A DNA stretch of 64,000 nucleotides from Burkholderiaceae bacterium (lineage in GTDB: Bacteria; Pseudomonadota; Gammaproteobacteria; Burkholderiales; Burkholderiaceae_C), in assembly GCA_913776825.1 (NCBI GenBank), contig CAJYPV010000008.1, forward strand, positions 1 to 64,000, in the 5' to 3' direction. The notes below the pieces were generated by a model. It was not told the origin of the DNA, did not search any database, and saw nothing but the letters and a program-made list of their open reading frames with translations. Positions 6,271-61,540 of the stretch are shown piece by piece. The stretch's first letter is position 1, and every line of letters begins with the position of its first letter. A program made the position numbers and the translations under genes.

Positions 6271-6298
6271 CGTCTGCCGTCTGCCGTCTGCCGTCTGC
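6271..6298. repeat. four tandem copies of a 7-nt unit (CGTCTGC)
   Basis: Four perfect head-to-tail copies lie in the short gap between two convergent glycosyltransferase genes. A 7-nt period cannot be coding in register, so length changes here would be neutral for the proteins. I see no further role. Confidence 0.9.
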
Positions 6299-6330
6299 CA
6301 TTCGCCAGCCGCCACGCGGGTGACGAGGGC

Positions 6331-24327: not shown

Positions 24328-24342
24328 CGACCCGCCCGCCGA

Positions 24343-26612: not shown

Positions 26613-26741
26613 TGCAAAACTCCTCCTGAATACTCTTCTTGGATCGACCGAATCACATCGAGGACCGGCGCCGCGATCGCCTCGAGGGCCGCGGTCCCGT
26701 CGGGCCGGGCCATCCCGTGGCGATCAGCGTCGGGCCGGCGC

Positions 26742-33080: not shown

Positions 33081-33297
33081 GGCGCCTCCCTCGTGATATC
33101 AGCGTTTTTGGTTTGCAACTGAATCATACGCAGCAGGACGTTTCGGAGCCATCCGAGAACGCCCGCCCTGGACCAAGATCAGCAAAAGTCTGAGATCGAG
33201 CGAGACATTCGCGCCACAACCTCGGCTCTCCGGACTGCCGCCGAATCAGGGTCTACCCTAACTCCACCCCGCCACCTGCCCGCGCATCACAAACAAC
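33081..33297 (-). promoter_or_regulatory. AT-richer leader/promoter region of the giant surface protein
   Basis: These 217 bp upstream of the DUF4347 gene are clearly poorer in GC than the surroundings. On the minus strand a TATGAT hexamer (about 33124-33129) lies some 45 bp before the start codon, but I see no good -35 partner, so the promoter type is open. No open frame here looks like a gene. The palindromic repeats begin directly upstream. Confidence 0.35.
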
Positions 33298-45589: not shown

Positions 45590-45621
45590 GAACCCGGGCG
45601 AAGACCCTCACACTGATCCGG
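45590..45621 (+). promoter_or_regulatory. array promoter element A (GAACC-N17-ACTGATCCGG)
   Basis: GAACC at 45590-45594 and ACTGATCCGG at 45612-45621 are exactly 17 bp apart. The same pair with the same spacing precedes genes B, C and D. It resembles an ECF-sigma -35/-10 pair; with CACTGA read as CACNNA at 16 bp it approaches the hrp box (GGAACC-N15/16-CCACNNA), lacking the first G. It lies 95 bp before the start of gene A. Confidence 0.7.
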
Positions 45622-45706
45622 CTCGACCGCCGCCCACCCGCGCAGCGCCCCGGGGCTGCGCGACGCCCCGCCCTGGCGGCCGTCTTCTCATTCAGGAGAC
45701 CGCGCC

Positions 45707-47431
45707 ATGTGGAGCCGCTTCACCACCAGTTGTCCGGATCTGTCCGCCTTCAGTGGGTGGCGGTCCGATCAGACCGGCACCGCCGACGCGCGCGGGAGCC
45801 ACGGCGATGGCGATGGCGATGGCGACGCTGCAACAAGCTCCACGGACAGGCCGGCTTGCCCCGACGCGGCGCCGTGCCCGTCCTCCGACTCATCCGCCGC
45901 CTGCGCTTCCTCGTCAGCGCAGGTGGAGCCGGCCGTCGAGGCGACCCCGGCGGCAACCCACACCCTCCAACGTCCCGTCGCCTCACCGGCGAGCACGCAC
46001 CGCGTCATCCTGTCGCGAGCACAGCGGCGCGAGCCCGACGATGCGCCTCGCGCCGCGATGGCGCAGGCCCGACGCATGCTGCTCGATCCGGACACACCGG
46101 CTGCCTTGAGGACCAAGCTCGAACGCTGGACCCGCCCGCATGCCGAATGGGCGGAGGATCTGACCTCGCGATTCGCCCATCATTTCCGCCCCCTGGCCGA
46201 GCAGGCCGGACCCCGGATGGCGACGCGCTTCGACAGCGACATCCTGCCGAGCCTGCGCGAAGCGGCGGTGGTCTGCGTCGCCCTGGGTCTGTATCGCCTG
46301 CCCGCCGTGCGCCGAAGTCTGGATCAGAATTTCAGGTTCGATTGGAAAGAGGCACGCGCGGGGCGCATCGCCCATTCGGCGAGGTTCCTGGCGGAACTCC
46401 TCATGGTCGCTGCGTGGTCGATCGCTTTGCTGGAGCGTGGACGTAGCCTGGGCCGGCGCGCGGAGTTGGGGCTCATCACCCAAGGCCCAGATAACCCGTT
46501 GGGATGGACCGCCGCCGCTGGGCTGATGACTGCAGCACCAGCGATTGCCTGGGTGGACAGCTTGATGGTACGCGGACGGCTCCAACTGGAAGACCACCGG
46601 CTGCTGAAGCCGGAGACTCGATTCCGCAACGTCCTGGCGCAGCGGTTGAATGAGGACCAGATGCGCGGTCCACGCCACACGGCCTGGCGTGAAGCCTGCA
46701 CCGTGCTGCTGGGCAGCGCGCTCTTGCGCGCAGCGGCTTTGCCGGCCCTCCAGCAGTTCCTGATCTCCCGCCGAACGCCCATGGACGTCGCGGCTTATGC
46801 GTCGCTGCATATGCTGTTGGACTTCATCGTCTTGCGCCAACTCGTGCCGACGCGCCTGAACCGGCAGCGCCTGCCGCCGTCGCTCTCGCTGTCCAGGGAC
46901 TTCCGCGCCTTGTCCGCCACCCAGTTCCCGGCTTGGGCCCTGCACCACCACCAAACCTCCCGTGGCAGCCGCCAACGGCTGCGGGCCTTCCTGGTCGCCG
47001 TCGGCGCCGGCCTGTGGCGCCCCTCCACCTACGTGCGAGCCGCAGCGGGAGTCACGCCGTTCCTGCTCGCCCACGACCTCGCCCTGGCGCTGCTGCCGCC
47101 ACCTGTCGGCGCAGCCAATTTCCACCGTCCGGCGTCCGCCGACCATCGCTTGAGGCCCGGGGCCATCTCCGGCCTCGAGGCCATGCTCCTGGGCATCTGG
47201 GCCAGCCTGCTGAGCGCGGCCAGCATCGTGACCGCCCAAGGCGTCCGTGCCTGGGCGGAACGGACGCTGGACCCCGTCACCGAACGATGGCTGCGGCGTG
47301 CCAGTCACGCGCTGTGCGCCCGCCTCTCGTCGCGAGACGAGCGCGACACCCTGAGCGTTCGCCTCTCTGAAGCCGACCGCCCCGATCCCGCGCGGGAGGC
47401 CGCACGTCTGCGCCACGGTCACCCCGCCTGA
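45707..47431 (+). CDS. paralogue array gene A: unknown membrane-associated protein
   Basis: 574 residues, no recognised family. The start (MWSRFTTSCPDLSAFSGW) is preceded by CAGGAG and shared with B and D. Residues 20-110 are Ser/Ala/Asp-rich and disordered, with a GDGDGDGD run from hexanucleotide repeats. The family core follows: 'LLDPDTPAALRTKLERW' (125-141), 'FRPLAEQAGPR' (160-170), 'PSLREAAVVCVALGL' (181-195), 'LLKPETRFRNVLAQRL' (299-314), 'ALSATQFPAWA' (401-411) and 'WRPSTYVRAAAG' (437-448). Hydrophobic stretches lie at 226-243, 266-288, 330-350, 443-465 and 487-512, the last followed by 'RAWAERTLDPVTERW'. There is no Sec signal. It is the simplest member, with a short tail. Confidence 0.75.
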   Translation: MWSRFTTSCPDLSAFSGWRSDQTGTADARGSHGDGDGDGDAATSSTDRPACPDAAPCPSSDSSAACASSSAQVEPAVEATPAATHTLQRPVASPASTHRVILSRAQRREPDDAPRAAMAQARRMLLDPDTPAALRTKLERWTRPHAEWAEDLTSRFAHHFRPLAEQAGPRMATRFDSDILPSLREAAVVCVALGLYRLPAVRRSLDQNFRFDWKEARAGRIAHSARFLAELLMVAAWSIALLERGRSLGRRAELGLITQGPDNPLGWTAAAGLMTAAPAIAWVDSLMVRGRLQLEDHRLLKPETRFRNVLAQRLNEDQMRGPRHTAWREACTVLLGSALLRAAALPALQQFLISRRTPMDVAAYASLHMLLDFIVLRQLVPTRLNRQRLPPSLSLSRDFRALSATQFPAWALHHHQTSRGSRQRLRAFLVAVGAGLWRPSTYVRAAAGVTPFLLAHDLALALLPPPVGAANFHRPASADHRLRPGAISGLEAMLLGIWASLLSAASIVTAQGVRAWAERTLDPVTERWLRRASHALCARLSSRDERDTLSVRLSEADRPDPAREAARLRHGHPA

Positions 47432-47438
47432 CGCCCTT

Positions 47439-47470
47439 GAACCGCGCACATGAGCCCTTCACTGACTTTG
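47439..47470 (+). promoter_or_regulatory. array promoter element B (GAACC-N17-ACTGAC)
   Basis: GAACC at 47439-47443, 17 bp, then ACTGAC at 47461, starting only eight bases after the stop of gene A. The left half reads TTGAACCGCG, identical to that of element D. The downstream TCCGG of the other copies is not kept here. The start of gene B is 125 bp from ACTGA. Confidence 0.65.
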
Positions 47471-47585
47471 TCGATGGGCTGCGCTTGGGGTGATGGCACC
47501 CGCACCGCCCGGCGATCGGCTTCGCCGTCGAACACGATCGCGCCCGTCAATGCCCACGCCCGTTTCCTTCTCCAGGAGCCCCCTC

Positions 47586-49766
47586 ATGCGCAGCCAATTC
47601 AGCGCCAGTTGCCCGGACCTGTCCGGTGCGTCGGCCTGGCGTACCGACCCCTCTCCTGAGCCTGCCGGGCAGGCAGACGGCCGCTCGACCGATCCGCACG
47701 CTCAGGACGACCTCCATCGGAACGCCCCGAACGACGGACCCGAGCGCAGCGAGTCGGACCGAGGCCGCCCTTCACGCGACGCGTCCGCGCCTGCGTCGGC
47801 ATCGCACGGCGAAACACGCGGCGAAACACGCGCCAGGTCACGCCACGATTCGCGACCCACCGGTCGCAACGATCCTGGCGCGGGTCCCTCCGGCTTGTGC
47901 GGACGCCGCGCCGCGCTGCCCATCGATCACGACGTCGAGCGCGCCGTCGAGCCCGATGCCGCCTGCTACCAGTCGCCCCCCAACCTGGACGACATCTTCC
48001 GCCCCGGCGGCCGTCGACGGCGTGTGCTGTGGCGGGCCGACGAGATGCCCGGATTGACCCGGATGAGCGCCCGGCTCCTGGCCAAGGACCCGCGCATGCC
48101 CGAACCCATGCGGGCCGTCCTGCACGAATGGAGGCCGGACCAGACGCGCCGGGCCAATGCCCTGCTCGGTCAGTTCCAGAAGGCCTTCCAGGGGCTGGCG
48201 ACACCGGGGAACGTGCGACACCTGCCGGACTTCGATTTCAATTCGGACGTGCTGATGGACCTGCGGGACTCGGCCGTGCTGTGCGTGGCCGCCGGGCTGG
48301 ACCAGATGGAATCGGTGCAAGCGGCGCTGGACCATCGATTCAGCCAGGAGCGCCAGGTGCATCTGCTCACGCCCATGCTCCAGATTCCCACGCTGTTGTT
48401 GGCCTGGTTCGTGCCCGTGATGACGCTGGGGCTGGCGTCGCATCTCAACGAGCAGGCACCCGCCGCCAACACCTCCGCCGCATCCCGCCTGCAGGACAGC
48501 CTGTGGTCGGCCTCCGCGAGCCTGATGGGCGCAGCACCGCTGCTCGCCGCGCTGGACAGCCTGATGGACGGCATCTGGCACGCGCTTCCCAAGTCCAGGC
48601 TGCTGCGGCCGGACACTGAATTCAACAACCCGCTGGCCACGCAACTGCAGCGGGCGTCGCTGCACACCGACGTGTTCGACGCCAGCTTCGACGGACTGAA
48701 CAAGGTCGCGTGGGGCGCCATCCTCCGCGCCGGCGTGAACGCGGCGGCGGTCGCCACATGGCCATCGACCTTCAAGCTCACACCGCTGCTGGTCCTGGAT
48801 CTCGCGCTGGAGCAGGTCAGCCAGGTCATGGTGCCCAGCCTGATGCGCCGCCAATTGCCGCTGGACACGCCATCGCGCCAGCAGCGCCATCTCATGGCGC
48901 TGTCGACGGACGAATTCGGTCCGTGGCTGGCTCACCCCGAACCCGCCCCCATGCCGAACGGCAAGCAGCTTCCCTCCGCCTTCGCCGAGAGTCTTCGCGG
49001 CATGACCCGCCCGTCGGTGATCGCCCGCGCCGCCTTGGTGGTGGCACCGGCTTTCGCGCTGCGGGGCTTCGCGATGTCAGGCTGGCTGGGGGCGAAGGCG
49101 GCGCCCGGCACACCGACCGCCTCGCCCGGCGAGCCCACGGCCGAGCCGTCGCTGGAGCTGGACCCCTTGTCGGTGTATCTCATCAGCACGGCCGCCTCCG
49201 TGATCACCGGCGCAAGCGTGATCCTGGCGCAGATCGTGCGCCGAGCGGCCGAGCGGCATCTCGACCCCGTGATGGAACCCTGGATGGAACGGACTCGCCA
49301 GGCGCTGCATCACGGGGTGCAACAACTGCGGCAGGCCCTGTGGCGCCATTCCGATGACGCTGCGGCGACGGACCCCGAAGATCCAACAGGCCCCTCCGCC
49401 GCGGCCCTCGAACGGATCGGCGACCACCAAGCCGCCCTCGGCGACCTGGATCTCGACGAAGAGGCCCTCGTGAGCGACTCGGAGCGCGACGACGCGGCCG
49501 TCACCCGGCCGCTGCTTCGTGCCGACTCGCCGCGCCCTGAAGGGGCCACGCTGCGCATCGTGTCGGAGACCGACACCGCGACGAGCCCACGCCGCGCCGC
49601 CGCGCATCCGCCCGCGTTCCGTGCCGAGACGCCGCACCGCGCCATGCAACTGGCACAGGCCCGCGCTCGCGCGGAACCGGAGGCGCCACGGCGCGAATCG
49701 ATCGCGCTGTCGCAGTCGCGACTGGATCGCCTGGATGATCCGACCCTGCGCGAATCGCACCTCTGA
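47586..49766 (+). CDS. paralogue array gene B: unknown membrane-associated protein
   Basis: 726 residues from the ATG at 47586 (CAGGAG upstream); an open frame 5' of it is not conserved. The N-terminus MRSQFSASCPDLSGASAW matches A and D. Residues 20-140 are disordered and Arg/Ser/Asp-rich. Core motifs: 'LLAKDPRMPEPMRAVLHEW' (164-182), 'LRDSAVLCVAAGL' (226-238), 'LLRPDTEFNNPLATQL' (339-354), 'ALSTDEFGPWL' (438-448) and 'TRPSVIARAALVVAP' (474-488). Hydrophobic segments lie at about 264-285, 309-330, 480-500 and 527-551; the last is followed by 'RRAAERHLDPVMEPW'. A 150-residue acidic then Arg-rich tail follows. No family recognised. Confidence 0.75.
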   Translation: MRSQFSASCPDLSGASAWRTDPSPEPAGQADGRSTDPHAQDDLHRNAPNDGPERSESDRGRPSRDASAPASASHGETRGETRARSRHDSRPTGRNDPGAGPSGLCGRRAALPIDHDVERAVEPDAACYQSPPNLDDIFRPGGRRRRVLWRADEMPGLTRMSARLLAKDPRMPEPMRAVLHEWRPDQTRRANALLGQFQKAFQGLATPGNVRHLPDFDFNSDVLMDLRDSAVLCVAAGLDQMESVQAALDHRFSQERQVHLLTPMLQIPTLLLAWFVPVMTLGLASHLNEQAPAANTSAASRLQDSLWSASASLMGAAPLLAALDSLMDGIWHALPKSRLLRPDTEFNNPLATQLQRASLHTDVFDASFDGLNKVAWGAILRAGVNAAAVATWPSTFKLTPLLVLDLALEQVSQVMVPSLMRRQLPLDTPSRQQRHLMALSTDEFGPWLAHPEPAPMPNGKQLPSAFAESLRGMTRPSVIARAALVVAPAFALRGFAMSGWLGAKAAPGTPTASPGEPTAEPSLELDPLSVYLISTAASVITGASVILAQIVRRAAERHLDPVMEPWMERTRQALHHGVQQLRQALWRHSDDAAATDPEDPTGPSAAALERIGDHQAALGDLDLDEEALVSDSERDDAAVTRPLLRADSPRPEGATLRIVSETDTATSPRRAAAHPPAFRAETPHRAMQLAQARARAEPEAPRRESIALSQSRLDRLDDPTLRESHL

Positions 49767-49813
49767 GCGCGCGACGACCTGAGCACGCAGCAGAAATCGG
49801 CGTCCATCCGGAA

Positions 49814-49845
49814 GAACCGCGCCCAGGGCCTCGGTACTGATCCGG
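49814..49845 (+). promoter_or_regulatory. array promoter element C (GAACC-N17-ACTGATCCGG)
   Basis: GAACC at 49814-49818 and ACTGATCCGG at 49836-49845, spacing 17. The left half reads GAACCGCG as in B and D. It lies 93 bp before the gene C start. Here the bases before ACTGA are GT rather than CAC, the weakest match to an hrp box among the four. Confidence 0.68.
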
Positions 49846-49928
49846 CGGGACTGCCGCATTTCAGACCCGTGCGGACGACCCACCCTCATCCTCCACGGCG
49901 GCGGTCGATCTTCAACAGGAAAGCGCCC

Positions 49929-52412
49929 ATGTGGAGCAACCTCCATCCCTACCGCTCGATTCCCGACGAGCACCGTTCCTGGCCTTCTGTGGGACCGAAC
50001 GACACGGCGCCTGCCGCGCCTCCCGCGTCTCAGGCAGCGCCATCGACCGAGCCCTCGGCCGACGCCTCGCACCTTCCGCCGGGCCGCCGTCAATCGCATC
50101 CGGTGCTGCATCGTCCGGCGCGTCGCGCTTCCTGGCCCGACGACACCGCCCTCGCCCGCCTGCGTGGGCCCGCACCGTCCCAGGTCGATACCGCACGGCC
50201 AGCACGCCTACGCGATGACGCGATCGCGCCATCGCCTGGCGACGAATCCAACGTCTCGGCGCGCCACATCCCGGCCAGCAACTCCCCCGAAGGCTTTGCC
50301 GTGCTGACGGAGATCATGTGCCTCAGCCCGCGCTTGCCGGCCGAGCTGAAGGCGCTGCTCAGCCAGCCGTCGACGGAGCGCTGCATGCGCGCTCATCTGT
50401 TGCAGTGCCAGTTCGAACGGACCTTCCGGCCGCTGGCGGAGCAGGCCGGCCCGGTCGCGCTGCACACCTTCAACACCGAGGGCCTGCCCGCGCTGCGTCA
50501 GGCAGCGCTGGTCTGTGCCGCCCTGGAGCTCGACCACCTGCCCACCCTGCAGCGCTGGCTGGATCAAGGGCTGCGCGCGGATCAACGATTTCATCGCTAT
50601 GCGCCGTTGTTCAAGCTGCCGGCACTGGCCTTGGGATGGCTGTTCGCGGCGACCGCGATGATGGCCGCGCCCGAGCTGCCGGCCAAGACGAGGTCCGAGA
50701 GGCCGGCCTGCGCCGCGACATCGGCCGACGGACAGGTCGATTGGTTGTGCGACGTGCGCAAGCAAAGCGAACAGCAGTGGCTGGGCTGGATGGCGCTGAT
50801 GGCGGCCGCGCCGCTGATGGGTCTGCTGGACAGCGTGCTGGACGCAGGCTGGCGATCGCTGCGAACCCCGGGCCTGCTGGACCGCGATGTGCACTTCAAC
50901 AACGAGCTGGCCGAGGCCTTGCACGCGCGGCCCGACCGGCCCGACCGCTCCGAACGCGCCGAGGCCCTGCGCGACGGCCTCACCGGCTTGGCCCTGGCCG
51001 CGGGCCTGCGGGTGGGTGGCGGCGTGGCCGCCACCGCAGCCTTGCCGCACGGCCTGCGCATGCGCAGTTTTCTCGGCCTGGACGCGGCCGCCGAAGCGCT
51101 GACGCAAATCATGCTGCCGCATGCCGGGAGAAGCCTGAGAAGCTGGACCGATCCGTCGTCGCCCGAGACCCATCTGCAGGCGCTCTCCAGCGATCGCTTC
51201 ATGGACTGGGCCACGCGGTCGTCGGCCACCCATCCGAGCGTGGCGGAACAGCTCCGCACCGCGCTCGGCGCGATGGTTGGCAGCCTGGCTCGTCCTTCCA
51301 CCTGGGTGCGCGCCGCGCTCGCCCTCGCGCCCAGCATGGCGATCCGTGGCTTGTCGTTGTATGCGATGCCGTATCCGGGCGGGCCGCATGTGGAGCACCT
51401 GTTCAATGCTGACCGGAGCACGGCCGACGAGGGCCCGCCGATCGATCCGCTGATCGCGGCGATCGCCAGCAGCATGGGTGCGCTGTCGCTGACCTGCGCG
51501 GCCGTCGCGGCCGTCCCGGTGCGCCGCTGGGCGGAGCGCGTGCTGGACCCGGCGGCCCGAACCTGGACCGATCACGCCTGGCAGCAGATCGGCCGCGGCC
51601 ACCGCCGTGTGGCCGACGCGCTGGGGCTGCATCGCGCAGGCGCCTCGGCGTCCGCCGATCGGGACATCGAGCTGTCGCTGCTTCGCCGCGCGTCGATCCT
51701 GTCCGATGAGGGCGTCGGCGTGCCGTCAGCGCTGAGCGCCTCACCCGACACGCGTCCGGACGAGCCGCTGTCGCTGCGCTCGACCCCATCGGAACCTTCG
51801 GGACGATCCGCCGGATCGGCGCAGACGTCATCCGTCGAGCCGTCCGGTCTCGCGGAAACCGTCCGCCCTGCCTCCCCGTCACCCTCCACCATCTCGAGGT
51901 CGACGTCGACGACCTCATCGCGATGGGACGTGCCTGAACACGCGATGCCATCGCATCGGTCGACGCCCTCGATGCGCTCGACCTGGTCGTTCCAGTCTGC
52001 GCGGTCGGACCAGCCGCTGCTGTCGGGGCGATCGATGGAGGCCGAGCCGGCTGCCGTCGTCAATCCGGTGTTCGCGCGGCGCGGCGCACGACTCACGAGC
52101 GTCGAAGGCCGCAGCGCCCGACCGGATCGCCCACCGCCGACGAGCCCGGCCATCGATCCCCAGGCCGCGCCAGCGACCACGGCGCGCGACGTCCCGCGTC
52201 CCGGTCGATCCTCCGCACCGCGATGGCCGGGACGCGTGGCCGGTCCCGGCGCCAGCGCTGCCAACGCTGCCAGCGAGAGCGGGCCGCGCGACCTCACTGA
52301 ACGCGCGTCCCTGAGCGCGTCGGACGCGCGACGGGCGGCCGTCTGGATCCGTCTCGCCCCGGACCGAGCCAGCATCGACGAGGCCGGCTCGGAGGCCGAA
52401 AGCCTGGTCTGA
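49929..52412 (+). CDS. paralogue array gene C: unknown membrane-associated protein, longest member
   Basis: 827 residues from the ATG at 49929 (AGGA upstream). It keeps MWS and the Trp at 18, but the SCPxLS box is lost. Residues 20-115 are Pro/Ala/Arg-rich. Core: 'FRPLAEQAGPVALHTF' (166-181), 'PALRQAALVCAAL' (187-199), 'LLDRDVHFNNELAEAL' (316-331), 'ALSSDRFMDWA' (418-428) and 'ARPSTWVRAALALAP' (454-468). The DDPxTP box is degenerate here. Hydrophobic stretches lie at about 226-248, 284-306, 350-372, 458-482 and 505-530, the last followed by 'RRWAERVLDPAARTW'. Residues 560-827 form a very long Ser/Pro/Arg tail, the longest disordered part in the array. Confidence 0.74.
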   Translation: MWSNLHPYRSIPDEHRSWPSVGPNDTAPAAPPASQAAPSTEPSADASHLPPGRRQSHPVLHRPARRASWPDDTALARLRGPAPSQVDTARPARLRDDAIAPSPGDESNVSARHIPASNSPEGFAVLTEIMCLSPRLPAELKALLSQPSTERCMRAHLLQCQFERTFRPLAEQAGPVALHTFNTEGLPALRQAALVCAALELDHLPTLQRWLDQGLRADQRFHRYAPLFKLPALALGWLFAATAMMAAPELPAKTRSERPACAATSADGQVDWLCDVRKQSEQQWLGWMALMAAAPLMGLLDSVLDAGWRSLRTPGLLDRDVHFNNELAEALHARPDRPDRSERAEALRDGLTGLALAAGLRVGGGVAATAALPHGLRMRSFLGLDAAAEALTQIMLPHAGRSLRSWTDPSSPETHLQALSSDRFMDWATRSSATHPSVAEQLRTALGAMVGSLARPSTWVRAALALAPSMAIRGLSLYAMPYPGGPHVEHLFNADRSTADEGPPIDPLIAAIASSMGALSLTCAAVAAVPVRRWAERVLDPAARTWTDHAWQQIGRGHRRVADALGLHRAGASASADRDIELSLLRRASILSDEGVGVPSALSASPDTRPDEPLSLRSTPSEPSGRSAGSAQTSSVEPSGLAETVRPASPSPSTISRSTSTTSSRWDVPEHAMPSHRSTPSMRSTWSFQSARSDQPLLSGRSMEAEPAAVVNPVFARRGARLTSVEGRSARPDRPPPTSPAIDPQAAPATTARDVPRPGRSSAPRWPGRVAGPGASAANAASESGPRDLTERASLSASDARRAAVWIRLAPDRASIDEAGSEAESLV

Positions 52413-52510
52413 CGACCGTGGCAACGGCATCGCACCAGCGGGCATGACGCCGAGCGCCATCGCCCGCGTCGTCCCTCGCGATCGACACCGCCGCGAGGGG
52501 CCCACACCTT

Positions 52511-52542
52511 GAACCGCGCCGGGGAGGCTCACACTGATCCGG
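52511..52542 (+). promoter_or_regulatory. array promoter element D (GAACC-N17-ACTGATCCGG)
   Basis: GAACC at 52511-52515 and ACTGATCCGG at 52533-52542, spacing 17; TCAC precedes TGATCC as in element A. It lies 104 bp before gene D and probably drives D through H, because no comparable element is seen before E-H. Confidence 0.7.
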
Positions 52543-52636
52543 GGCCTCATCGGCGCATCGGTGGCGCGGGTGCTCATGCAGCGTTCTCGCCCGCCGTCTC
52601 GACCTCTCTCCTCTCTCACGCACCAGGAGCGTCTTC

Positions 52637-54616
52637 ATGTGGAGTGCCTACAGCGTCAGCTGTCCCCAACTGTCACAGCTCGGCGCATGGGATGCGCCGC
52701 TGCCCTCCTGGCCCGATTCGCCGCCCGAGCCTGAAGCGCCCTTGCTCGACGTGCATGAGCGCTTCGAGACGCTCTATCGCCTGCGTGGCCGGCAAGGGCC
52801 GAACTCGCTGCGCGCGATCGCCGCCAAGGTGGTGGAGATGCAGGCCGATCCGGACACGCCCGCGCGGCTGCGGCCCTTGCTCGGCAAGTGGACGTCGGAA
52901 CACGGACGAAAGGCAGTCGCGTTGCTCGTCGAATTCCGCAATGAATTCCAGGCGCTCTCGCTGGAGAACGCCGGCGGTCGTCCGGACAACTTCGAGCGGG
53001 ACACGCTGCCCTCCCTGTATGAGGCCGCCATCGTCTGCGTGGCCCTCGGCATGGACCGCATGCCCGCGATTCGCGACTGGCTTCACCGGCATCTGAAGGC
53101 CGACCAGCGACGGCTGCGTCACGGCGGCGTGTTCAAGACCCCGGTTCACGCGCTGGCCTGGACCATCGCCGGTGCGTTCATGGCGTCGGCCCCCTCGCTC
53201 AAGGCCTTGCGAGGGGACGATGCCGCATTCGCCCTGGAGGGTCCGAACGGCAGGCCCTGGCTGCCCGCCACCGCCGTGCTGGCCGCCACGCCGCTGCTGG
53301 CGTGGCTGGACAGCGTGCTGGATGCGGGATGGGCTCACCTCGAGCATGAGCAGTTGCTGCAGCGCGATGAGTTCTTCGGCAATGAGCTTGCCGCGCGCCT
53401 GCACGAACAGCACAGCGTTTCCGAGCAGCGGGCCGCCCTGCATGACGCGCTGAGCGGCCTGATCGCGGGCGTCCTGATGCGTGTCGGCGTGGGCGCGGCC
53501 TGGGCAGCCGGTCAGCCAGGCGGCATTCGGGCGGCCGAGCATGTGGCGCTGAGCGCCATGCTGGAAACCTTCGCGTTCGGGATAGCGCCCAGCGTGTGGC
53601 GCAGCTTCTTTCCCTTGCAGGACCACGGCGCGTCGCACGCCCATTTGAGGGCGCTCTCCAGCACCCGATTCACGCCGTGGGCGTTCCGGACCATGGAGCC
53701 GGGCCAAGGTCAGTCGGCGCGATTCCGTTCGACGGGCGCCGCCATGCTTCGGCAGGCCTTGAAGCCGTCCACCCTGGTGCGGGCGGCCCTGTTGATCGCG
53801 CCGACCCTCGCCGCTCGCAGCGTGGTGCTCAACGTCCTGCCCTATCCGGCGGGGCTCAACACGCAGCACGAATCCAGTCCGGACCCGACGACGCAGTCCC
53901 TGGGACCGACGATCGATCCGGCATTGGCCGCGCTGACCGGCGCGGCGGCCACGATGCTGGCAACGGCCGCGCTCTATGCGTCCCCGTTCCTTCGCAATAC
54001 CCTGGCGCGCACCCTGGACCCGGCCGTCGAGCGACTCGCCCAGCGGGTCTTTCAGTCGGTGGCCCATGGCGGACAACGGCTCGCCGCCGCCCTCGGCTGG
54101 CCGGGCACGGACACGCCGCCTGAGCCAGGGACCCACACCGGCACCGGCACCGGCACCAGCCACAGAGACAGCACCGACAACGCCATCGAGATGACCGCGC
54201 TGAGTCGCCCGTCATTCCCGTTTCCCCCGGGACGGTCGGTCATCCGTGCGGCGCCGCCGACCTCCTCCGGCGCCACGGGCATCGCCGCTGGCCCGCATCG
54301 CGCGCCACGGGGCCTGCCTTCATCGCGGACCGCGGCAACGGCCCCAGCCTCGACCTCGGCCTCCGCATCAGCCGCGCCTCGCGGGCGAGGCCAGCCGGAT
54401 CGGCCCGGCCCTGCACGCCCCTCGATGGTTTCGGACCCGACGGCGCAACTGCGCCCCTCGGCCCCCTCAGCGCTCACGGTGCACGCCGCGCCCGCAAACC
54501 GCTCCACGCGCGCCGCGCCGTCGACCCGCTGGACGCGGGCCGAGGTCCATGCGCCGCCTGGCCGCGAGCCGTTGCTCCTGAACCTGTCGGACGACGACGA
54601 CGAGACCGGCGTGTGA
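52637..54616 (+). CDS. paralogue array gene D: unknown membrane-associated protein
   Basis: 659 residues, CAGGAG upstream. The N-terminus MWSAYSVSCPQLSQLGAW matches A and B, and the first disordered segment is much shorter (20-45). Core: 'MQADPDTPARLRPLLGKW' (68-85), 'LPSLYEAAIVCVALGM' (124-139), 'LLQRDEFFGNELAARL' (240-255), 'ALSSTRFTPWA' (339-349) and 'LKPSTLVRAALLIAP' (375-389). Hydrophobic regions lie at about 170-186, 210-230, 272-292, 380-402 and 427-450, the last followed by 'LARTLDPAVERL'. The tail (480-659) has a GTGTGT run and Ser/Arg/Pro-rich sequence ending in an acidic LSDDDDETGV. Its stop overlaps an in-frame GTG that could begin gene E. Confidence 0.75.
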   Translation: MWSAYSVSCPQLSQLGAWDAPLPSWPDSPPEPEAPLLDVHERFETLYRLRGRQGPNSLRAIAAKVVEMQADPDTPARLRPLLGKWTSEHGRKAVALLVEFRNEFQALSLENAGGRPDNFERDTLPSLYEAAIVCVALGMDRMPAIRDWLHRHLKADQRRLRHGGVFKTPVHALAWTIAGAFMASAPSLKALRGDDAAFALEGPNGRPWLPATAVLAATPLLAWLDSVLDAGWAHLEHEQLLQRDEFFGNELAARLHEQHSVSEQRAALHDALSGLIAGVLMRVGVGAAWAAGQPGGIRAAEHVALSAMLETFAFGIAPSVWRSFFPLQDHGASHAHLRALSSTRFTPWAFRTMEPGQGQSARFRSTGAAMLRQALKPSTLVRAALLIAPTLAARSVVLNVLPYPAGLNTQHESSPDPTTQSLGPTIDPALAALTGAAATMLATAALYASPFLRNTLARTLDPAVERLAQRVFQSVAHGGQRLAAALGWPGTDTPPEPGTHTGTGTGTSHRDSTDNAIEMTALSRPSFPFPPGRSVIRAAPPTSSGATGIAAGPHRAPRGLPSSRTAATAPASTSASASAAPRGRGQPDRPGPARPSMVSDPTAQLRPSAPSALTVHAAPANRSTRAAPSTRWTRAEVHAPPGREPLLLNLSDDDDETGV

Positions 54617-54726
54617 AGCGCCGCGCGGTGCGCCGCTGCCGCGCGTCTTCATTCGCCCGATCACCAGGGTGTCCCGTCAGGCGCCATGGCCCCACCCCTC
54701 GATTGCCCCTCGCGGGCCCCTCATCG

Positions 54727-56148
54727 ATGTACCGATTGCCCGCCGCGTCCAGCGTCGTCTCTGCAGCGCGTCCAGCGCCCGATGCCCCGCCCGCCGCCGC
54801 CGGCCGGCTGCAACGGACGACTTCGGCCACCATGCTGTCGATCCAGCGGCAGGCCCTGCTGGACGATCCGCTCACGCCGGCCTCGCTGCGCGAACGACTG
54901 CGCTGCTGGGCCCAGGATCAGGACGAGGAGGCGGCCGAGCTGGTCGACCATTGGCGCACCCAGTTCTGGCCGCTGGCGAAGGCCGAAGGCTGGCGCGAAG
55001 GCGACCATCGGGACGACATCGAGCCCACGCTGTTTCGGGCCGCTGCGCTGTTCGTGGCCGCGGGGCTGTCCACCCCCGAACTCGCCCGGGCGCAACTCGC
55101 GATGAGCCAGGCGCGGGATGAGGACCTGGACGACGCCGCGCGCTTTCTCGGCACCCTGGTGGGTCACTGCCTTCCAGCGATGGCCACCTGGTTTCAACGC
55201 GCAGGCCGCGCGATCACGCATCGCGCGGTCGACCCGGACACCGCCGCGTCGCCAGGCCCGATGCGCTGGCTCGATGCCGCGACCCCTGCCGCCTGCGGCG
55301 CGCTGCAGGCCTGGGGCGAGTCGATGCGCGACGCGGTCAGCCGGTTGAGCCTGCTCGACCCGCGCGCCGACCTCGGCCCTGCGCTGGCGCGGCAACTCGA
55401 TCACCGTCTGCGGCGCACGCCGCTGGATCAGCGCACCGTGCGCAGCAATGTGCACTGGACCGCCCAGGTGGTCGGCCGCGGGCTGGCGCTGCCCGGCCTG
55501 ATCGAGGTCGCAGGACGCGTGCCCGACAGCCTGCGCGTCGGGCTGGACCTGCTGATCGAGCTCGCGGCTCAGCTCGCGGTGAGCAGTTGGCTGGAGCACG
55601 GCAGCCGACCGGCGCCGCCCTCGCCGGCCCAGTACAGCCTGTTGATGGTGTCCCAACGCGATCTGGCCCAGCGCGTGGACGCGCTGGCCTCGGTCGAGAT
55701 GATGCCGCATGCCGCCAGTGAGGTGGTGAGCCACGGGCTGCGGGCATCGCTCGGTCGGCCCGAGTTCGCCGCGCTGCTGCAAGCGCTGGTGGTGTGGGCC
55801 GGCTTCGCGGCTCAGGCGATGCTGATCGATCGCCATCCGCCGCCGATCGGCCTGGCCGCGCCGTCGCCGGGTGAGCCGCTGCGCGTCGATCCGCTCGTCA
55901 GCCCACGCGAAGCGATGGTCGAGGGTCTGCAGGTGGCGATGATCTCCAGCCTGATGACCTATGCCGCGCTCACCGCACGCGCGCATGCGCCGGCCTTGAA
56001 TTCCCGGGTCCATGCGGGCGTGGACCGACTGCGCCAATGGTGGCGGGGCGGTGTGGCCGCGTCAGGCGCGGTCGCGGCTGAAGGTCCGCCCAGCCGTCGC
56101 GGACGACCGCGCCCGACCGACATGCCGCCCTCGGGAGCAACGCGATGA
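54727..56148 (+). CDS. paralogue array gene E: unknown membrane-associated protein
   Basis: 473 residues from ATG 54727 (MYRLPAASSV, comparable to MYPLRSAASP of gene H). A GTG at 54613 overlapping gene D's stop would add 38 Arg-rich residues and give tight coupling, so the start is unsettled. Core: 'ALLDDPLTPASLRERLRCW' (43-61), 'FWPLAKAEGWREGDHRDDI' (80-98), 'PTLFRAAALFVAAGL' (100-114), 'LLDPRADLGPALARQL' (209-224), 'MVSQRDLAQRVDAL' (307-320), and 'LQVAMISSLMTYAALTARAH' (401-420) running into APA. It has the shortest tail of the array. It overlaps F by four bases. Confidence 0.72.
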   Translation: MYRLPAASSVVSAARPAPDAPPAAAGRLQRTTSATMLSIQRQALLDDPLTPASLRERLRCWAQDQDEEAAELVDHWRTQFWPLAKAEGWREGDHRDDIEPTLFRAAALFVAAGLSTPELARAQLAMSQARDEDLDDAARFLGTLVGHCLPAMATWFQRAGRAITHRAVDPDTAASPGPMRWLDAATPAACGALQAWGESMRDAVSRLSLLDPRADLGPALARQLDHRLRRTPLDQRTVRSNVHWTAQVVGRGLALPGLIEVAGRVPDSLRVGLDLLIELAAQLAVSSWLEHGSRPAPPSPAQYSLLMVSQRDLAQRVDALASVEMMPHAASEVVSHGLRASLGRPEFAALLQALVVWAGFAAQAMLIDRHPPPIGLAAPSPGEPLRVDPLVSPREAMVEGLQVAMISSLMTYAALTARAHAPALNSRVHAGVDRLRQWWRGGVAASGAVAAEGPPSRRGRPRPTDMPPSGATR

Positions 56149-58010
56149 TCCCCGCCCGCACTGGGCCACGCGGCTGGGATGCCGGCGCCTTCGGCCCGGC
56201 GGATATCGGCGCGATCCCGGACCGCGGCGATGCGTCCGCGGACGACCTCGATGCTCAGCAGCACGAGACCCACGAGGCGCCGATGTGGGACCGCGATGTC
56301 CGCCAGGGTCGCCGCGTGCAGAGCCATCACGACGATCGCAGCGACCGAGGCGATCGAAGCGATCGAAGCGATCGAAACGATTACCCATTCCGTGCCGCGC
56401 GTGCCGCTCGATCGCCGCATGCCCATGCCCATGCCCGCGGTCGACCTGCCGATCGCCGAGCAGACGTCGACGACGCGTCAGCCTCGGCTTCCGCACCGAT
56501 GGCGAACCCAAGCATCGCGGCGCAACAAGCCCGCGAGGCGGCCGTTCGGGCCCAGCTCCGCAACGAGTTCGCGCACGCGGCGATCGAACGGGCCGTGCGC
56601 GCCTTGATCGATGATCCGCTCACGCCGGTGACCGTGCGCGAGCGGTTGGCACGCCTCACGCCCGCCGACCGCGATCAGATTCAGCGCCTCACGTCCGATC
56701 TGGTGGAGGGCTTCCTGCCGGTGGCCGCCGCCGCTGAATGGACGGAACACGCCTACCGCGTCGAAGTCACACCCGCCTTGACCCGCGCGGCCGCGCTGAT
56801 GGTGGCGGTCGGCATCGGTCATACGGACCTCGTGGCCGCCCGCCTCGCCTTTCGTCATGCGCTCGACAAGGCATGCTTCAACCACGTGGCCAATTCGCTG
56901 CAGTATGCGGCGGGGCAAATCATGCCGAGTCTGTATATCTGGCTGGTCCGCCTCCTCGATGGCGCGTTGCGCATGTCGGGAGGGAATTATTCGACAGGCC
57001 CTGCCGGCAATCCCTTCTTCAACCGTGCGGCCTGGCCGACCGCATGCGCCGGCGCGATGGTCTGGTCGGAATCGGCGCGTGAAGACATGTTGGACGGGCG
57101 CCTGCTCGGCCCCCGACCGCAATTTGTCCATGCGCTGGCGCGCGAACTGGCCGCACGATTCAGGCTCGACGCATCCACCCAGCGCGACCAGCGCTGCAAT
57201 CGGCTCTGGATGCTGCAGATGATCGCGCATGTGTTCATGATCCCCGCCGCGGTCAGGGTCGCCGGGGGTGTGCCGGGGATGTTCCACGCGTCCCAGGAAA
57301 TGATGGCGGACCTGGCGTCCCGCACGGCCATGGCCTACCTGGACGACAAGCAGTGCCCACGGGACTTGCCCGCCCTGATGCCCTACAGCTTCCTGGCGCT
57401 GTCGCAACGCGACCTGGCGCAACGGATCGAGTCCCTGGCCAACACCGGCCCGGCGCAATGGAGCGAGACGACGATGGCTCGACGGCTGCTGCGCATGACG
57501 CTGAGCTTTGCGCGACCTTCCAGCGTGCTGGAAGGCCTTGTCGCCCTCGCCGGCCTGAGCCTTCAGGGCCTGCTCCTGGACCTCCGATCGCCGCCCTTCG
57601 GGCAGGCGCCGCTGGCGTCCAGCACCGGCATCGATGGCCATGCGGACACCGACCACGGCCGCTGGCCGCTCGACCACCCGGGACTGAATCAGCAGGTCAG
57701 CGCACGCGACAGCCTGTGGTTCGGCTTGATGCATGTGACCCTGTCCACGCTGACCAGCTACGCCCTGCTCACCGCACGGGCCCACGCGCCGGCGGTGAAC
57801 GCGGTCGTCGACCGCTGGCTGGAACGACTCGGCCAGTGGTGGCGGGCGGACGCCGAGACCCGCCCCGCCGACCTGGCGGTGTCCAGGGCGCCCAGGGCGC
57901 CGAGTCCGTCGAGTTCGTCGAGTCCGGCAAATCCACGCGGCAGGCCGCCGCGCACCGCCTACGTCCCGGGCCTCCACCGTCGGTCCGCGCCGGACCGTCG
58001 CGCGCCATGA
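56145..58010 (+). CDS. paralogue array gene F: unknown membrane-associated protein
   Basis: 621 residues; the ATG overlaps E's stop (ATGA). The first 135 residues are disordered and contain RSDRGDRSDRSDRND, encoded by 9-nt tandem repeats near 56341-56380, and HAHAHAR from CCCATG-type repeats. Core: 'ALIDDPLTPVTVRERLARL' (153-171), 'GFLPVAAAAEW' (189-199), 'PALTRAAALMVAVGI' (210-224), a 'LLGPRPQFVHALAREL' box, 'ALSQRDLAQRIESL', 'ARPSSVLEGLVALAG' and 'YALLTARAHAPAVN'. The tail ends 'TAYVPGLHRRSAPDRRAP', shared with gene H (AYIPGIHRQRA). It overlaps G by four bases. Confidence 0.74.
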   Translation: MIPARTGPRGWDAGAFGPADIGAIPDRGDASADDLDAQQHETHEAPMWDRDVRQGRRVQSHHDDRSDRGDRSDRSDRNDYPFRAARAARSPHAHAHARGRPADRRADVDDASASASAPMANPSIAAQQAREAAVRAQLRNEFAHAAIERAVRALIDDPLTPVTVRERLARLTPADRDQIQRLTSDLVEGFLPVAAAAEWTEHAYRVEVTPALTRAAALMVAVGIGHTDLVAARLAFRHALDKACFNHVANSLQYAAGQIMPSLYIWLVRLLDGALRMSGGNYSTGPAGNPFFNRAAWPTACAGAMVWSESAREDMLDGRLLGPRPQFVHALARELAARFRLDASTQRDQRCNRLWMLQMIAHVFMIPAAVRVAGGVPGMFHASQEMMADLASRTAMAYLDDKQCPRDLPALMPYSFLALSQRDLAQRIESLANTGPAQWSETTMARRLLRMTLSFARPSSVLEGLVALAGLSLQGLLLDLRSPPFGQAPLASSTGIDGHADTDHGRWPLDHPGLNQQVSARDSLWFGLMHVTLSTLTSYALLTARAHAPAVNAVVDRWLERLGQWWRADAETRPADLAVSRAPRAPSPSSSSSPANPRGRPPRTAYVPGLHRRSAPDRRAP

Positions 58011-59740
58011 TCCCCGCCGCAGCGGCCGGCGGCCGGGGCCAAGCGCCTGCCGATGAGCCTGAGGACGATCCCCCCGGCGCCCGTGCCGTGGTCGTCAGAC
58101 GCCATGACGCCGTGCGCGCCCTGATCGACGATCCGTTGACGCCGCCCGCGGTGCGCGCCTGTCTGATGGCCTGGACGCCCGATCAGCAGACCCGCGCCGA
58201 TCGGATCATGGCGCATCTGTTGACCGTCTGCCGGGAGCTCAGCGAGCGTGAGGGCATCGCGCCCAGGGTCTTCGATGAGCAGGTCGTGCCCACCCTGCAC
58301 CGGGCCGCAGTGCTGTTGGTGAGCGCCCGGCTGGACACTGCCGATCAGGTGGCCGAAGCCTTGTGGGCCAGCCATCTGCGCGACGAACATCTGCTGGACC
58401 CGACCGCCCGCTCGGGTCGCGGGGTGACGATCATGGTGCTGTGCACGCTGGCATTCAGCCTGGTGCATGTGGTCCAGACGGTGACCACGCCGCGCGAGAC
58501 CCTCCAGGACTTCCTGCGTCAGTCCCCGGCCAGCCATTGGCGTGACTGCAGCGCGCTGCGCGCGGCGGCCATCACGCTGGCGGATTCGACCGCCGACCGC
58601 CTGCTGGAAGGGCGACTGCTGCCTGCGCGGGCCGCGCTGACCCATCCCCTGGCAGCGGTGCTGGCGCGACGACGCGGCATCGACGCGAGCGGCGAGCGTG
58701 AGCTGCGCAGCGTCATCCGCACCGGGATGCAGGTGGCGGGCCGAGTGGTGCTGTTGCCCGCGTTGGCCGCCACCTTGGGGCCGATCACCAACATGGCGCG
58801 CTGGTGGGGCGACCTGGCCCTGTGGCTGGTGCTGGAATGGGCCAGTGCGGAGTTTCCGGAGATCGACGTCGCCACCCGACGGCTGAGCGTCGGCGACTAC
58901 TCGCTGTTGCTGCTGTCTCAACCCGACCTCGCCCGCCGCGTGGGGGCCCTGTCGGTGCTGAGCACGATGGAGTCTCCGCCGGACTCGCCGTCCTGGCTGA
59001 CCCTGCTGGGCGAGCGCCTTCGGGATCTGCCTCGCCCTTCCACGATCGCGCAGGCGCTGGTGCTGTGGGCCAGTTTCTACGCCGAGACGCAGCTGTTGTC
59101 CCAGCAGCCCTGGCCGGTGGGCGAGGTCCTGCCAAACGGAGAACGTCCGTCGTTATGGCGGCACTTGAACAGCGATACCCGCGACGGCTTCGACTGTCTG
59201 CTGCTGGGGGCCTTGAGCGTGGGCATCGGCACAGTGGGCACCTATGCCGCCCTGACCGTACGCGCGCATGCGCCCGCCATCGATGCAGGCGCCGCGGCGG
59301 TGGGGGATCGGTTGCGTCGATGGATCCTGAATGTGGCCGGGCAGACCCGCGCGGCCACGGACACGCCCCGCGCCGAGGCGACGCCGCCGGACCCGAGGTC
59401 CGCTCCGCCATCAGCCGATTCGCCGCCTGCTCGCCCCTACGGCACGCCCGGCCGCTCGCGGGCGTCGCTCACGGCCGCCTCCACGGCGAGCTCGACCTCG
59501 CCTCGTGAGCGTCGTGCGATGCAGGCGACGGGGGCCATTGCGCTGCCGGCCTCGCGCCGATCGTCTCCCTCACGCGTCGATGAGGCCTCGACCTCGAGCT
59601 CGACGTCGACCGCCGAGCGCCGCGCCCGACCCTCGCCACCTTCGGCGACAGACACCGCGGACGACGCCGCCCCCGACGACGCTGCCCGTCGCCCGCGCCT
59701 GCACCGGCATCGACGGCCCGATCGCGGCGGCGACCCATGA
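58007..59740 (+). CDS. paralogue array gene G: unknown membrane-associated protein
   Basis: 577 residues; ATGA overlap with F, and the start MIPAAAAGG resembles F's MIPARTGP. Core: 'ALIDDPLTPPAVRACLMAW' (38-56), 'PTLHRAAVLLVSARL' (95-109), then a 'LLPARAALTHPLAAVL' box, 'LLSQPDLARRVGAL', 'PRPSTIAQALVLWAS' and 'YAALTVRAHAPAID'. Hydrophobic stretches include 'GVTIMVLCTLAFSLVHVVQT', 'VVLLPALAATLGPI' and 'LLLGALSVGIGTVGTYAALT'. The 140-residue tail is Ser/Arg/Ala/Pro-rich with 'STASSTSPRERR' and 'STSSSTSTAERR' near-repeats. Gene H follows after 36 bp. Confidence 0.74.
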   Translation: MIPAAAAGGRGQAPADEPEDDPPGARAVVVRRHDAVRALIDDPLTPPAVRACLMAWTPDQQTRADRIMAHLLTVCRELSEREGIAPRVFDEQVVPTLHRAAVLLVSARLDTADQVAEALWASHLRDEHLLDPTARSGRGVTIMVLCTLAFSLVHVVQTVTTPRETLQDFLRQSPASHWRDCSALRAAAITLADSTADRLLEGRLLPARAALTHPLAAVLARRRGIDASGERELRSVIRTGMQVAGRVVLLPALAATLGPITNMARWWGDLALWLVLEWASAEFPEIDVATRRLSVGDYSLLLLSQPDLARRVGALSVLSTMESPPDSPSWLTLLGERLRDLPRPSTIAQALVLWASFYAETQLLSQQPWPVGEVLPNGERPSLWRHLNSDTRDGFDCLLLGALSVGIGTVGTYAALTVRAHAPAIDAGAAAVGDRLRRWILNVAGQTRAATDTPRAEATPPDPRSAPPSADSPPARPYGTPGRSRASLTAASTASSTSPRERRAMQATGAIALPASRRSSPSRVDEASTSSSTSTAERRARPSPPSATDTADDAAPDDAARRPRLHRHRRPDRGGDP

Positions 59741-59776
59741 TGTCCGTCCTTGAGGCGCCCTACCGGAAGGTCCCCG

Positions 59777-61540
59777 ATGTATCCGCTTCGCTCCGCCGCC
59801 TCGCCCCTCCCGGTCGCCGATGACGCGACGGGCTTTCCGACCGCGCCCGATGACCTGGACCGCCCGGACATCCTGAACACGCTCGCCAACGTGTCGCGAC
59901 CACGCGGCAGCCGAGGCGATCGTGCGTTGACGCGATCGGGCCGCGCGCCCGACGACCCCACCTCGGTCGCGCCGGCGCCTGCACCGCCGTCGCGGACCGC
60001 GTCGACGAGCGGGACCGACCTCCAGCCCTGCGTGGATGCGCTGCTGGATGACCCGGACCTGCCCGCCCCCCTGCGTCTGCGGCTGAACCAATGGGGCTCG
60101 TCCGAAGATCAACAGGCCCAGGCGATGGCCGAGATGCTGACGGAAGGTTTTCGCCCGCTGGCGACGGCGCTGGAATGGCCGGAGGCCGACTACCAGTCCG
60201 AGGTCGTGCCGGCCTTGAAGCGCGCGGCCGTGCTGCTGGTGGCGGCGAATCTGGAGGATCCCGTCACGGTCGCCGCGCGGCTGCTCGGCAGCTACCGGCG
60301 GGACGACGAACTCGACAATGTGGGCCGCTACCTGCTGTTCCTGGTCGGCGAATGCGTGCCCTCGATCCTGATCTGGACGCAGCGGCTGTTCAACTCGGCA
60401 TCGGCCGCCGAGGGCGGACAGCCCGACACCGCGTCGCTGCGGAGGCTGGCGTCGTCGGGATGGCTGGCACCGGCCCTGTGCGGCCTGCTGCACGCGACGG
60501 CCGTATCGATGCGCCAGGCCTGTCGACGCATCGCCCTGCTGGATCCGACCCCGCACTACACCCATGCGCTCGCGCGCCAACTGGAGCGGCGCTGGCGAGG
60601 CCCGGCCGAAGCGCAGCGGGATGTCGACGCCAATCTGCATTGGTTTCAGCAAATGGTCAGCCGCGTGCTGCTGACCCCCGGATTGGTGGCGCTGACGGGT
60701 CCATTGACCCACGACGCCCGGCTGACGATGGACTACGCGGTGAACCTGGTCAGCCTGGAGGCCCATGTGCTTTGGGGCGAGCGTCTGGGACGTCGCCCCA
60801 TGCCGCCCTTGCTCGATTACAGCCTTCTGGTCCTGTCGCAGCGGGACCTGCCGCAGCGCATCGAGCGTCTGGAGCGGCTGCACCAATTGCCCAAGCATCC
60901 GTTCGGGCGGTCCTCCGCGAGCGCGCCGTCGGCGTTCGGCTGGCCGCGCGCCAGCACCTGGCTGCATGCGGCGGTGGTCGGTGCCGGCCTGCTGGCGCAA
61001 TCGCTGTGGCTGGATCCGCCGCCGCTCAGCCGACGCTGGATGGCAGGCGCCAGCGGCGCTGACGCGGTCCATGCCGGGACGCCGACGGTCTCAGCGCCCT
61101 ATTCGGCCCGAGAAACGATGCTCGACGGCTTGCAGGTGGCGCTGATCTCGACGCTGCTGACCTACGCCACCCTCACCGTCCGCGCCCATGCGCCCGCGAT
61201 CGATGCCCGGGCCCGGGACGGCCTGGACCGGCTGCAGCAATGGTGGCAGGGGCCCGACGAGGCCTCGATGCGGGACCCGCCGCCGAATCGCCCGACTGGG
61301 GCGACGACCGGTCTCGCCCATGCCCCAGGTCGAGGGGACGCGGTGTCAGGCCGCGTGAGGCGCCGTCGAGCGCTGCCGGACACGACCGGAGCGCGGGGAG
61401 CGCTGGGAGCGGCCGACGGCGAGGATGGCGCCGGATCGGCAGCCGTGTTCCGCGCGAGCCGGTCGCCGAGCCCCGCCAACTCGGCCTACATCCCGGGCAT
61501 CCATCGCCAGCGCGCGACGGGCCGCGACCCGGCTCGCTGA
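59777..61540 (+). CDS. paralogue array gene H: unknown membrane-associated protein
   Basis: 587 residues from the ATG at 59777, preceded by GGAAGG; an upstream ATG at 59750 lacks this. The N-terminal 85 residues are disordered. Core: 'ALLDDPDLPAPLRLRLNQW' (88-106), 'GFRPLATALEWPEADY' (124-139), 'PALKRAAVLLVAANL' (145-159), 'LLDPTPHYTHALARQL' (254-269), 'VLSQRDLPQRIERLERL', 'PRASTWLHAAVVGAG' and 'LQVALISTLLTYATLTVRAH' running into APA. The tail ends near 'NSAYIPGIHRQRATGRDPAR'. It is the last gene of the array; acnA starts 209 bp downstream. Confidence 0.75.
   Translation: MYPLRSAASPLPVADDATGFPTAPDDLDRPDILNTLANVSRPRGSRGDRALTRSGRAPDDPTSVAPAPAPPSRTASTSGTDLQPCVDALLDDPDLPAPLRLRLNQWGSSEDQQAQAMAEMLTEGFRPLATALEWPEADYQSEVVPALKRAAVLLVAANLEDPVTVAARLLGSYRRDDELDNVGRYLLFLVGECVPSILIWTQRLFNSASAAEGGQPDTASLRRLASSGWLAPALCGLLHATAVSMRQACRRIALLDPTPHYTHALARQLERRWRGPAEAQRDVDANLHWFQQMVSRVLLTPGLVALTGPLTHDARLTMDYAVNLVSLEAHVLWGERLGRRPMPPLLDYSLLVLSQRDLPQRIERLERLHQLPKHPFGRSSASAPSAFGWPRASTWLHAAVVGAGLLAQSLWLDPPPLSRRWMAGASGADAVHAGTPTVSAPYSARETMLDGLQVALISTLLTYATLTVRAHAPAIDARARDGLDRLQQWWQGPDEASMRDPPPNRPTGATTGLAHAPGRGDAVSGRVRRRRALPDTTGARGALGAADGEDGAGSAAVFRASRSPSPANSAYIPGIHRQRATGRDPAR

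Follow-up and report, generated by a model that had tools for sequence, protein, structure and literature searches.

What do the eight long open reading frames (ORFs) encode that stand in series between the genes for an ABC transporter ATPase and AcnA in a bacterium of the genus Roseateles, and what might such an array be for? They lie on the plus strand, at 45707-61540, of the DNA analyzed here, a window of 64,000 nucleotides (assembly GCA_913776825.1, contig CAJYPV010000008.1, positions 1 to 64,000; contig C8 of the 5.74-Mb genome G000), and from their refined starts they specify proteins of 473-827 residues, termed A to H in map order. Profile comparison places A-H as homologues in two clades, A-D and E-H, and what is new here is a family absent from the libraries searched, a promoter-like box, a 13-residue leader, a recurrent C-terminal end of the form E-[ST]-x-[LV], and a helical model with a cap and hairpins. 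As to function, we put at about even the chance that these proteins are type III effectors, predicted to embed in the membrane of a eukaryotic partner cell.

An earlier note on this DNA had proposed that the eight same-strand genes are one family, and had named an unrelated origin of A-D and E-H as the result that would overturn it. Aligned with hhalign, the A-D and E-H profiles match with a probability of 98.6 (E 1.2e-15, 387 columns), and in whole-genome searches the hidden Markov model (HMM) of E-H finds B (1.9e-18) and D (8.0e-10) and that of A-D finds H (4.0e-13) and G (9.8e-10), so the two groups are not unrelated; neither HMM finds a copy beyond the array in the window's genome. Core identity is 27-36% within A-D, 28-41% within E-H and 16-24% between them, and a tree of 15 cores separates E-H (support 100/100), A-D (92/96) and a third group of more distant homologues, clade III (100/100). 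Among the ordered motifs described earlier, the DDP box is literal only in E-H, with A, B and D reading xDP and C reading SP. The fourth motif is present in all eight in a relaxed form (LL and LA in 8/8, LLxP in 5/8), and the clade signatures hold throughout, with RAHAPA in 4/4 of E-H and LDP in 4/4 of A-D. The array genes and their flanks are:

44688..45461, plus strand: upstream flank, ABC transporter ATPase ('hisP' in the earlier note), PF00005 E 3.8e-33, 96.5% identical in R. amylovorans
45707..47431, plus strand: gene A, 574 aa, A-D clade, with a ribosome site; core model of mean pLDDT 77.6
47586..49766, plus strand: gene B, 726 aa, C-terminus ESHL, with a ribosome site; start matches that of database protein P0002
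49929..52412, plus strand: gene C, 827 aa, C-terminus ESLV, with a ribosome site
52637..54616, plus strand: gene D, 659 aa, C-terminus ETGV, with a ribosome site
54613..56148, plus strand: gene E, E-H clade, 511 aa (from an overlapping GTG) or 473 aa (from ATG 54727)
56145..58010, plus strand: gene F, 621 aa, start overlapping the E stop
58007..59740, plus strand: gene G, 577 aa, start overlapping the F stop; groups with R. amylovorans R1c (99/100)
59777..61540, plus strand: gene H, 587 aa
61750..64000, plus strand: downstream flank, AcnA, running past the window end, NF009520 1425.8 bits, full gene in L010

The GC3 of A-H is of the coding type (0.77-0.84, the value of 0.77 being that of G measured from an over-long start), and ribosome sites of the CAGGAG type back the starts of A (45707), B (47586) and D (52637), with CAGGAA ahead of C (49929). 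The start of H is most likely 59777 and that of E is 54613 or 54727; several true starts thus fall further downstream than the longest-ORF starts first assumed. Overlaps of 4 bases join D to E (from the GTG), E to F and F to G, the ATG of F overlapping the stop of E and the ATG of G that of F, and only 36 bp separate G from H, on which grounds D-H is read as one transcription unit. The largest gap between array genes is 224 bp, so that no immunity-sized gene adjoins them on that strand.

The earlier note could name no family for these proteins, and the libraries agree. No model of Pfam, NCBIfam, PHROGs or PADLOC matches an array protein by its curated cut-off, or by an E-value limit where no cut-off is given, the best lines being at chance level (E 0.024 or worse) in scans that covered six of the eight genes and a clade III protein for PHROGs and seven of the eight, with G left out, for NCBIfam. 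PDB sequence profiles give nothing below E 0.2, and fold searches of PDB and viral structures give no significant match. Against 5.8 billion proteins, D matches itself only, the A-D profile matches P0003 besides B and D, and nine matches come from a clade III protein, one of them with a name (Roseateles noduli), in searches that scored only the 7,996-7,997 candidates sharing most words, missed A and C of the same contig and may be lossy. The closest named relative in the databases is P0003, 'hypothetical protein [Roseateles amylovorans]'. Plasmid records hold no match to D, to a clade III protein or to a protein of genome G278 (see below), viral contigs hold no clade III relative, and a scan of named genomes with clade III gave at least one locus.

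Where else does the family occur? The notion that it is restricted to the array fails, since clade III stands at another site and there is a distant relative in another genus. In a congener set of 16 genomes of the genus, matches at E <= 0.001 come to 4 with the A-D HMM and 6 with the E-H HMM, with none in 10 of the 16. True array members are found in two of them, with eight copies in the window's genome and three (R1a, R1b and R1c) in R. amylovorans (G001). Clade III is a distant homologue present in single copy at a different site in G005, G010, G011 and G015, and one of its proteins, A7, matches the array profile in hhalign (prob 98.0, E 2.3e-13). The mutual core identity of its members is 56-76%, hence it evolves more slowly than the array, which it further resembles in having the same kind of promoter-like box ahead of three of its four copies. 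A family-wide draw of 399 genomes yielded three with a match, namely the window's own, G015 and G278, the last from another genus, in a survey of low sensitivity that scored four candidates per genome and included only part of the genus. The G278 protein (532 aa) is homologous to clade III (prob 97.0, E 1.2e-10). In G015, the clade III gene (L031:4351-6896) lies a few kb from small genes that have the look of a filamentous-phage remnant.

A comparison of the hisP-acnA interval had been suggested for copy-number variation, and the number does vary, with eight in the window's genome, three in R. amylovorans and, within 3.8-4.2 kb 3' of hisP in 14/14 other congeners, no array protein (tblastn, E <= 1e-4), these pieces stopping short of acnA. 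The reported placement between conserved genes is correct for the ABC ATPase and AcnA flanks; the content 3' of hisP is not conserved across the genus. The M14-type gene preceding hisP is present in 16/16 congeners. In G005, G010, G011 and G015, the four clade III congeners (loci L101, L106, L107 and L111), the genes after hisP are a convergent ORF of ~340 aa and flagellin, named from a family scan of the G005 copy only, with scores that are strong but below curated cut-offs. In R. amylovorans, R1a lies between hisP and a similar convergent ORF and R1b-R1c lie further along, before acnA, and the array genes there flank a pair resembling the convergent ORF and flagellin of the clade III congeners. 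The neighbouring proteins of the window's genome and R. amylovorans are 93.6% (M14), 96.5% (hisP) and 93.8% (first 300 residues of AcnA) identical, and the best array pairs are A/R1a at 38%, E/R1b at 39% and G/R1c at 41%. The copies may either diverge far faster than their neighbours or be different survivors of a larger set, and the grouping of G with R1c (99/100) favors faster divergence for that pair.

Insight into what such proteins might do comes from the predicted structure of A. Its core (residues 110-545), modelled from 15 family rows with a mean predicted local distance difference test score (pLDDT) of 77.6 and a predicted template modelling score (pTM) of 0.74, is all-helical, with a tight helical cap (block-mean pLDDT 94-97, model residues 11-100), six hydrophobic helices in three hairpins (~115-136/156-179, 221-239/249-270 and 336-353/380-401) and a long C-terminal helix bearing RAWAERTLDP. 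The whole protein is predicted to begin with a disordered N-terminal tail, to continue with the compact cap, the three hairpins and the long C-terminal helix, and to close with a second disordered tail. The hairpins, which are the model's less confident part, support the membrane association proposed earlier. For clade III the model is poor (mean pLDDT 50), which makes a fold search with it meaningless.

The ends of the proteins carry features that may bear on export and docking. The leader MWSxFxxSCPDLS is common to A, B, D and R1a, with 8-11 identities in 13 positions, and the following 40 residues retain 2-6; in C it has diverged to 2-3/13 identities, with only MWS kept. The leader total over all five A-D-clade proteins was reached in 0 of 10,000 shuffles. 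A Sec-like N-terminus is absent in 8/8, as the earlier note had claimed, the maximum 19-residue hydropathy within residues 1-60 being 0.73 or less. The serine content of the first 50 residues falls from 12-16% (A-D) through 10% (E) and 8% (H) to 2% (F) and 0% (G). At the other end, four of the five A-D-clade proteins finish in E-[ST]-x-[LV] (B ESHL, C ESLV, D ETGV and R1a ETRL), an end that one other ORF has among 239 picked mechanically (Fisher p 1.7e-7, a value to be read with the paralogues being non-independent, the 244 ORFs having 226 distinct C-termini and some ORFs perhaps not being genes). Clade III is without this end, the G015 copy ending in SRF. S/T-x-hydrophobic is the class I PDZ motif and is reported for the effectors Map, EspI and NleH1 of enteropathogenic Escherichia coli (EPEC), the C-terminal motifs of Map and EspI being TRL and TRV (PMC3015060). 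The same S/T-x-hydrophobic end is present in B, C, D and R1a, and these proteins are also like the EPEC effectors in lacking a Sec-like start and in coming from a genome with a type III secretion system (T3SS).

A possible clue to how the array is expressed lies in its upstream regions, which, aligned by eye, have in common GAACC-N16-[CTG]ACT[GA]A. The eight defining sites of this box stand ahead of A, B, C, D, R1a and the clade III genes of G005, G010 and G011; that of G015 has only a degenerate box with different spacing. On both strands of the window, the core pattern, which was derived from the sites themselves, has exactly four matches, one 5' of each of A, B, C and D at a distance of 115-147 bp from the ATG:

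45590..45618, plus strand: box ahead of A, GAACC-N16-CACTGATC, leave-one-out score 23.3
47439..47467, plus strand: box ahead of B, the weakest, GAACC-N16-CACTGACT, leave-one-out score 12.6, under the shuffle maximum
49814..49842, plus strand: box ahead of C, leave-one-out score 26.9
52511..52539, plus strand: box ahead of D, probably serving D-H, leave-one-out score 32.9

In leave-one-out matrix scoring, B reaches 12.6 and the other seven sites 18.5-33.1; since 20 one-strand shuffles of the window go up to 15.3, the B box is not significant alone. The exact pattern has nine matches in the 16 genomes, seven of which are defining sites by construction, and the reversed pattern has none. Of the two others, one is in G002 and one, in contig C26 of the window's genome, scores 6.7 and may be a chance occurrence. 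If one mismatch is tolerated, matches in the window's genome rise to 18, vs. 8 for the reversed control, and the neighbours of the extra sites mostly look chance-like at a glance. The box is uncommon and for the most part accompanies the family, without being exclusive to it. At the C26 site (L063, 9272-10481, minus strand), the pattern stands 88 bp before a 67-aa Ser-rich ORF, after which come a 74-aa ORF rich in Met and Gly and a protein of 92 aa consisting of sigma-70 region 4 alone (PF08281). On contig C9 (L064, ~5484-7054) are two tandem, mutually similar genes of ~240-250 aa, the first without a Pfam match, with a box-like site (score 12.0, under the shuffle maximum) ~70 bp before the likely ATG of the first, and this pair is possibly in the same regulon as the array.

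For Herbaspirillum rubrisubalbicans, the hrp box of HrpL, an extracytoplasmic function (ECF) sigma factor, is reported as GGAACC-N15-CCACTCAAT, and such boxes lie upstream of several hrp/hrc-region genes (PMC3487950). With that consensus the array box shares GAACC, the spacing and an ACTxA core; unlike it, all eight array-family sites are without the first G, and the second box departs from it in parts. The Ralstonia-type box TTCG-N16-TTCG was tried and rejected, as none occurs in the stretches examined upstream of A-D, H, R1a and the four clade III genes or in the portion examined upstream of R1b, and none of its 17 matches in the window is in an upstream gap of the array.

The genome does have a T3SS of its own. 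The non-flagellar set is on contig C32, where SctV (822 bits, cut-off 692), SctQ, SctN, SctJ and SctC are all over their NCBIfam cut-offs, and flagellar FlhA is on a separate contig, C21. Also on C32 are, below the NCBIfam cut-offs, HrpD5 (291.9/300 bits), HrpB1 (106.4/123.85) and HrpB2 (54.6/93.3, above that of Pfam), together with a chaperone that is weakly CesT-like (E 0.002) and a regulator of the OmpR type. Next to the chaperone gene is that of a 615-aa protein (L065, G000:C32, 2407-4820, minus strand) with a long Ser/Pro/Thr-rich N-terminus and a hydrophobic C-terminal part, which is a candidate effector or translocator. SctJ is over its cut-off in 15/16 congeners, including all six with family members; the exception, G004, has no family member. 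Among the papers listed in an open-licence library for Roseateles or Mitsuaria with type III secretion, no title or shown abstract is of a study of such a system in this group.

The remaining genes flanking the array in the window are for transport, hydrolase, polymerase and export functions, with no T3SS link seen. On the minus strand at 20879-33080, a 2111-aa DUF4347 protein is followed by one efflux protein of the outer membrane, a pair of HlyD-type fusion proteins and an M50-peptidase/HlyD protein, a run that resembles a locus devoted to the export of a giant surface protein. Its M50/HlyD member has the C-terminus ESAL, like the E-[ST]-x-[LV] class. Just upstream of the DUF4347 gene, at 33297-33899, is a tandem repeat of period 257 (2.4 copies, 95% matches).

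The reading of A-H as effectors that embed in the membrane of a eukaryotic partner draws on the lack of a Sec-like start, the conserved N-terminus followed by a disordered spacer, the hairpins, the tandem diversification, the C-terminal docking motif, the lack of immunity genes and the resident T3SS. In this mechanism the box would act as an ECF-sigma-type promoter, D-E-F-G-H would be transcribed as one unit, and A-H would be exported by the genome's own T3SS with the 13-residue leader as the export signal. The hydrophobic hairpins would then insert in the host membrane, B, C, D and R1a would dock by their E-[ST]-x-[LV] end on a eukaryotic PDZ scaffold, and tandem duplication and divergence would follow changing hosts or host receptors. 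A further-reaching version, which we consider rather unlikely, is that of a hypervariable tandem superfamily, confined to Roseateles and its close relatives and with its own promoter code, whose membrane-embedding effectors plug into eukaryotic PDZ scaffolds, the array serving as a diversity generator for host membrane targets.

Several findings weigh against effector delivery, which is a prediction from sequence and context with no better than an even chance. E-H do not share the A-D leader, and the N-termini of F and G (2% and 0% Ser) are unlike usual type III signals. The PDZ-like end is absent in A, E-H (4/4), R1b and R1c, in which these differ from Map, EspI and NleH1, and the likeness to those effectors is one of termini and of a T3SS in the genome. 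The hairpin regions of the A-core model have block-mean pLDDT values of 41-90, which makes the hairpins less certain. The presence of a T3SS in 15/16 congeners discriminates nothing, no T3SS chaperone or apparatus gene is recognized beside the array (the clade III flanks being read by eye only), and the 615-aa protein encoded near the T3SS genes is not homologous to the array (prob 0.3). The G002 box (L067, G002:C48:186795-186823) has a score of 25.3, on a par with family sites, and neither a family gene within ~1.5 kb of it nor a family protein anywhere in G002 was found; the clear gene nearest to it is a convergent ORF, presumably CoA-ligase-like. Lastly, the 53 kb around the T3SS genes are without the box (best score 10.3 vs. 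the shuffle maximum of 15.3), which differs from the placing of HrpL boxes at hrp/hrc genes in Herbaspirillum. Since the T3SS operons lack the box, we describe A-H as working like type III effectors and do not file them as members.

The main rival, which we regard as somewhat unlikely, is that A-H are resident inner-membrane proteins with disordered cytoplasmic ends, a lineage-specific duplicated family used, for example, in envelope stress or as phage receptor or decoy. Inner-membrane proteins normally have hydrophobic hairpins without a Sec signal, a pattern that the hydropathy of the array proteins fits; in addition, the promoter-like box is their own and is not shared with the T3SS cluster, and in four congeners clade III occupies one site as a lone gene. 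What would be unusual in an inner-membrane protein, however, is an identity of 38-41% between neighbouring species with flanks at 94-96%, the long disordered ends, a conserved extreme N-terminus of 13 residues that gives way to unconserved sequence, and the recurrent E-[ST]-x-[LV] end. It is quite improbable that A-H are pore-forming or antibacterial toxins released by a type VI or contact-dependent route or by lysis, the hairpins forming helical pores; in favor of it, SmhB and AhlB, subunits of alpha-pores, are among the top Foldseek rows for the A-core model, with E no better than 0.12. That these are not genes and only spurious frames kept open in a region of 70% GC, as long overlapping ORFs on both strands could suggest, has a negligible chance in view of the coding-type GC3, the ribosome sites, the 13-41% identity conserved at the protein level across array genes, R. 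amylovorans copies and clade III, and the consistent structure model.

If it is true that T3SSs inject the array proteins, they would be a first way into the effects of these bacteria on eukaryotes, and they would provide a natural diversification series of one fold and a new set of host-manipulation proteins. Docking on PDZ scaffolds, if true, would mean host manipulation in a genus not known for it. Even if A-H are not secreted, between-species divergence at the ~40% level, beside neighbours at 94-96%, demands a selective explanation.

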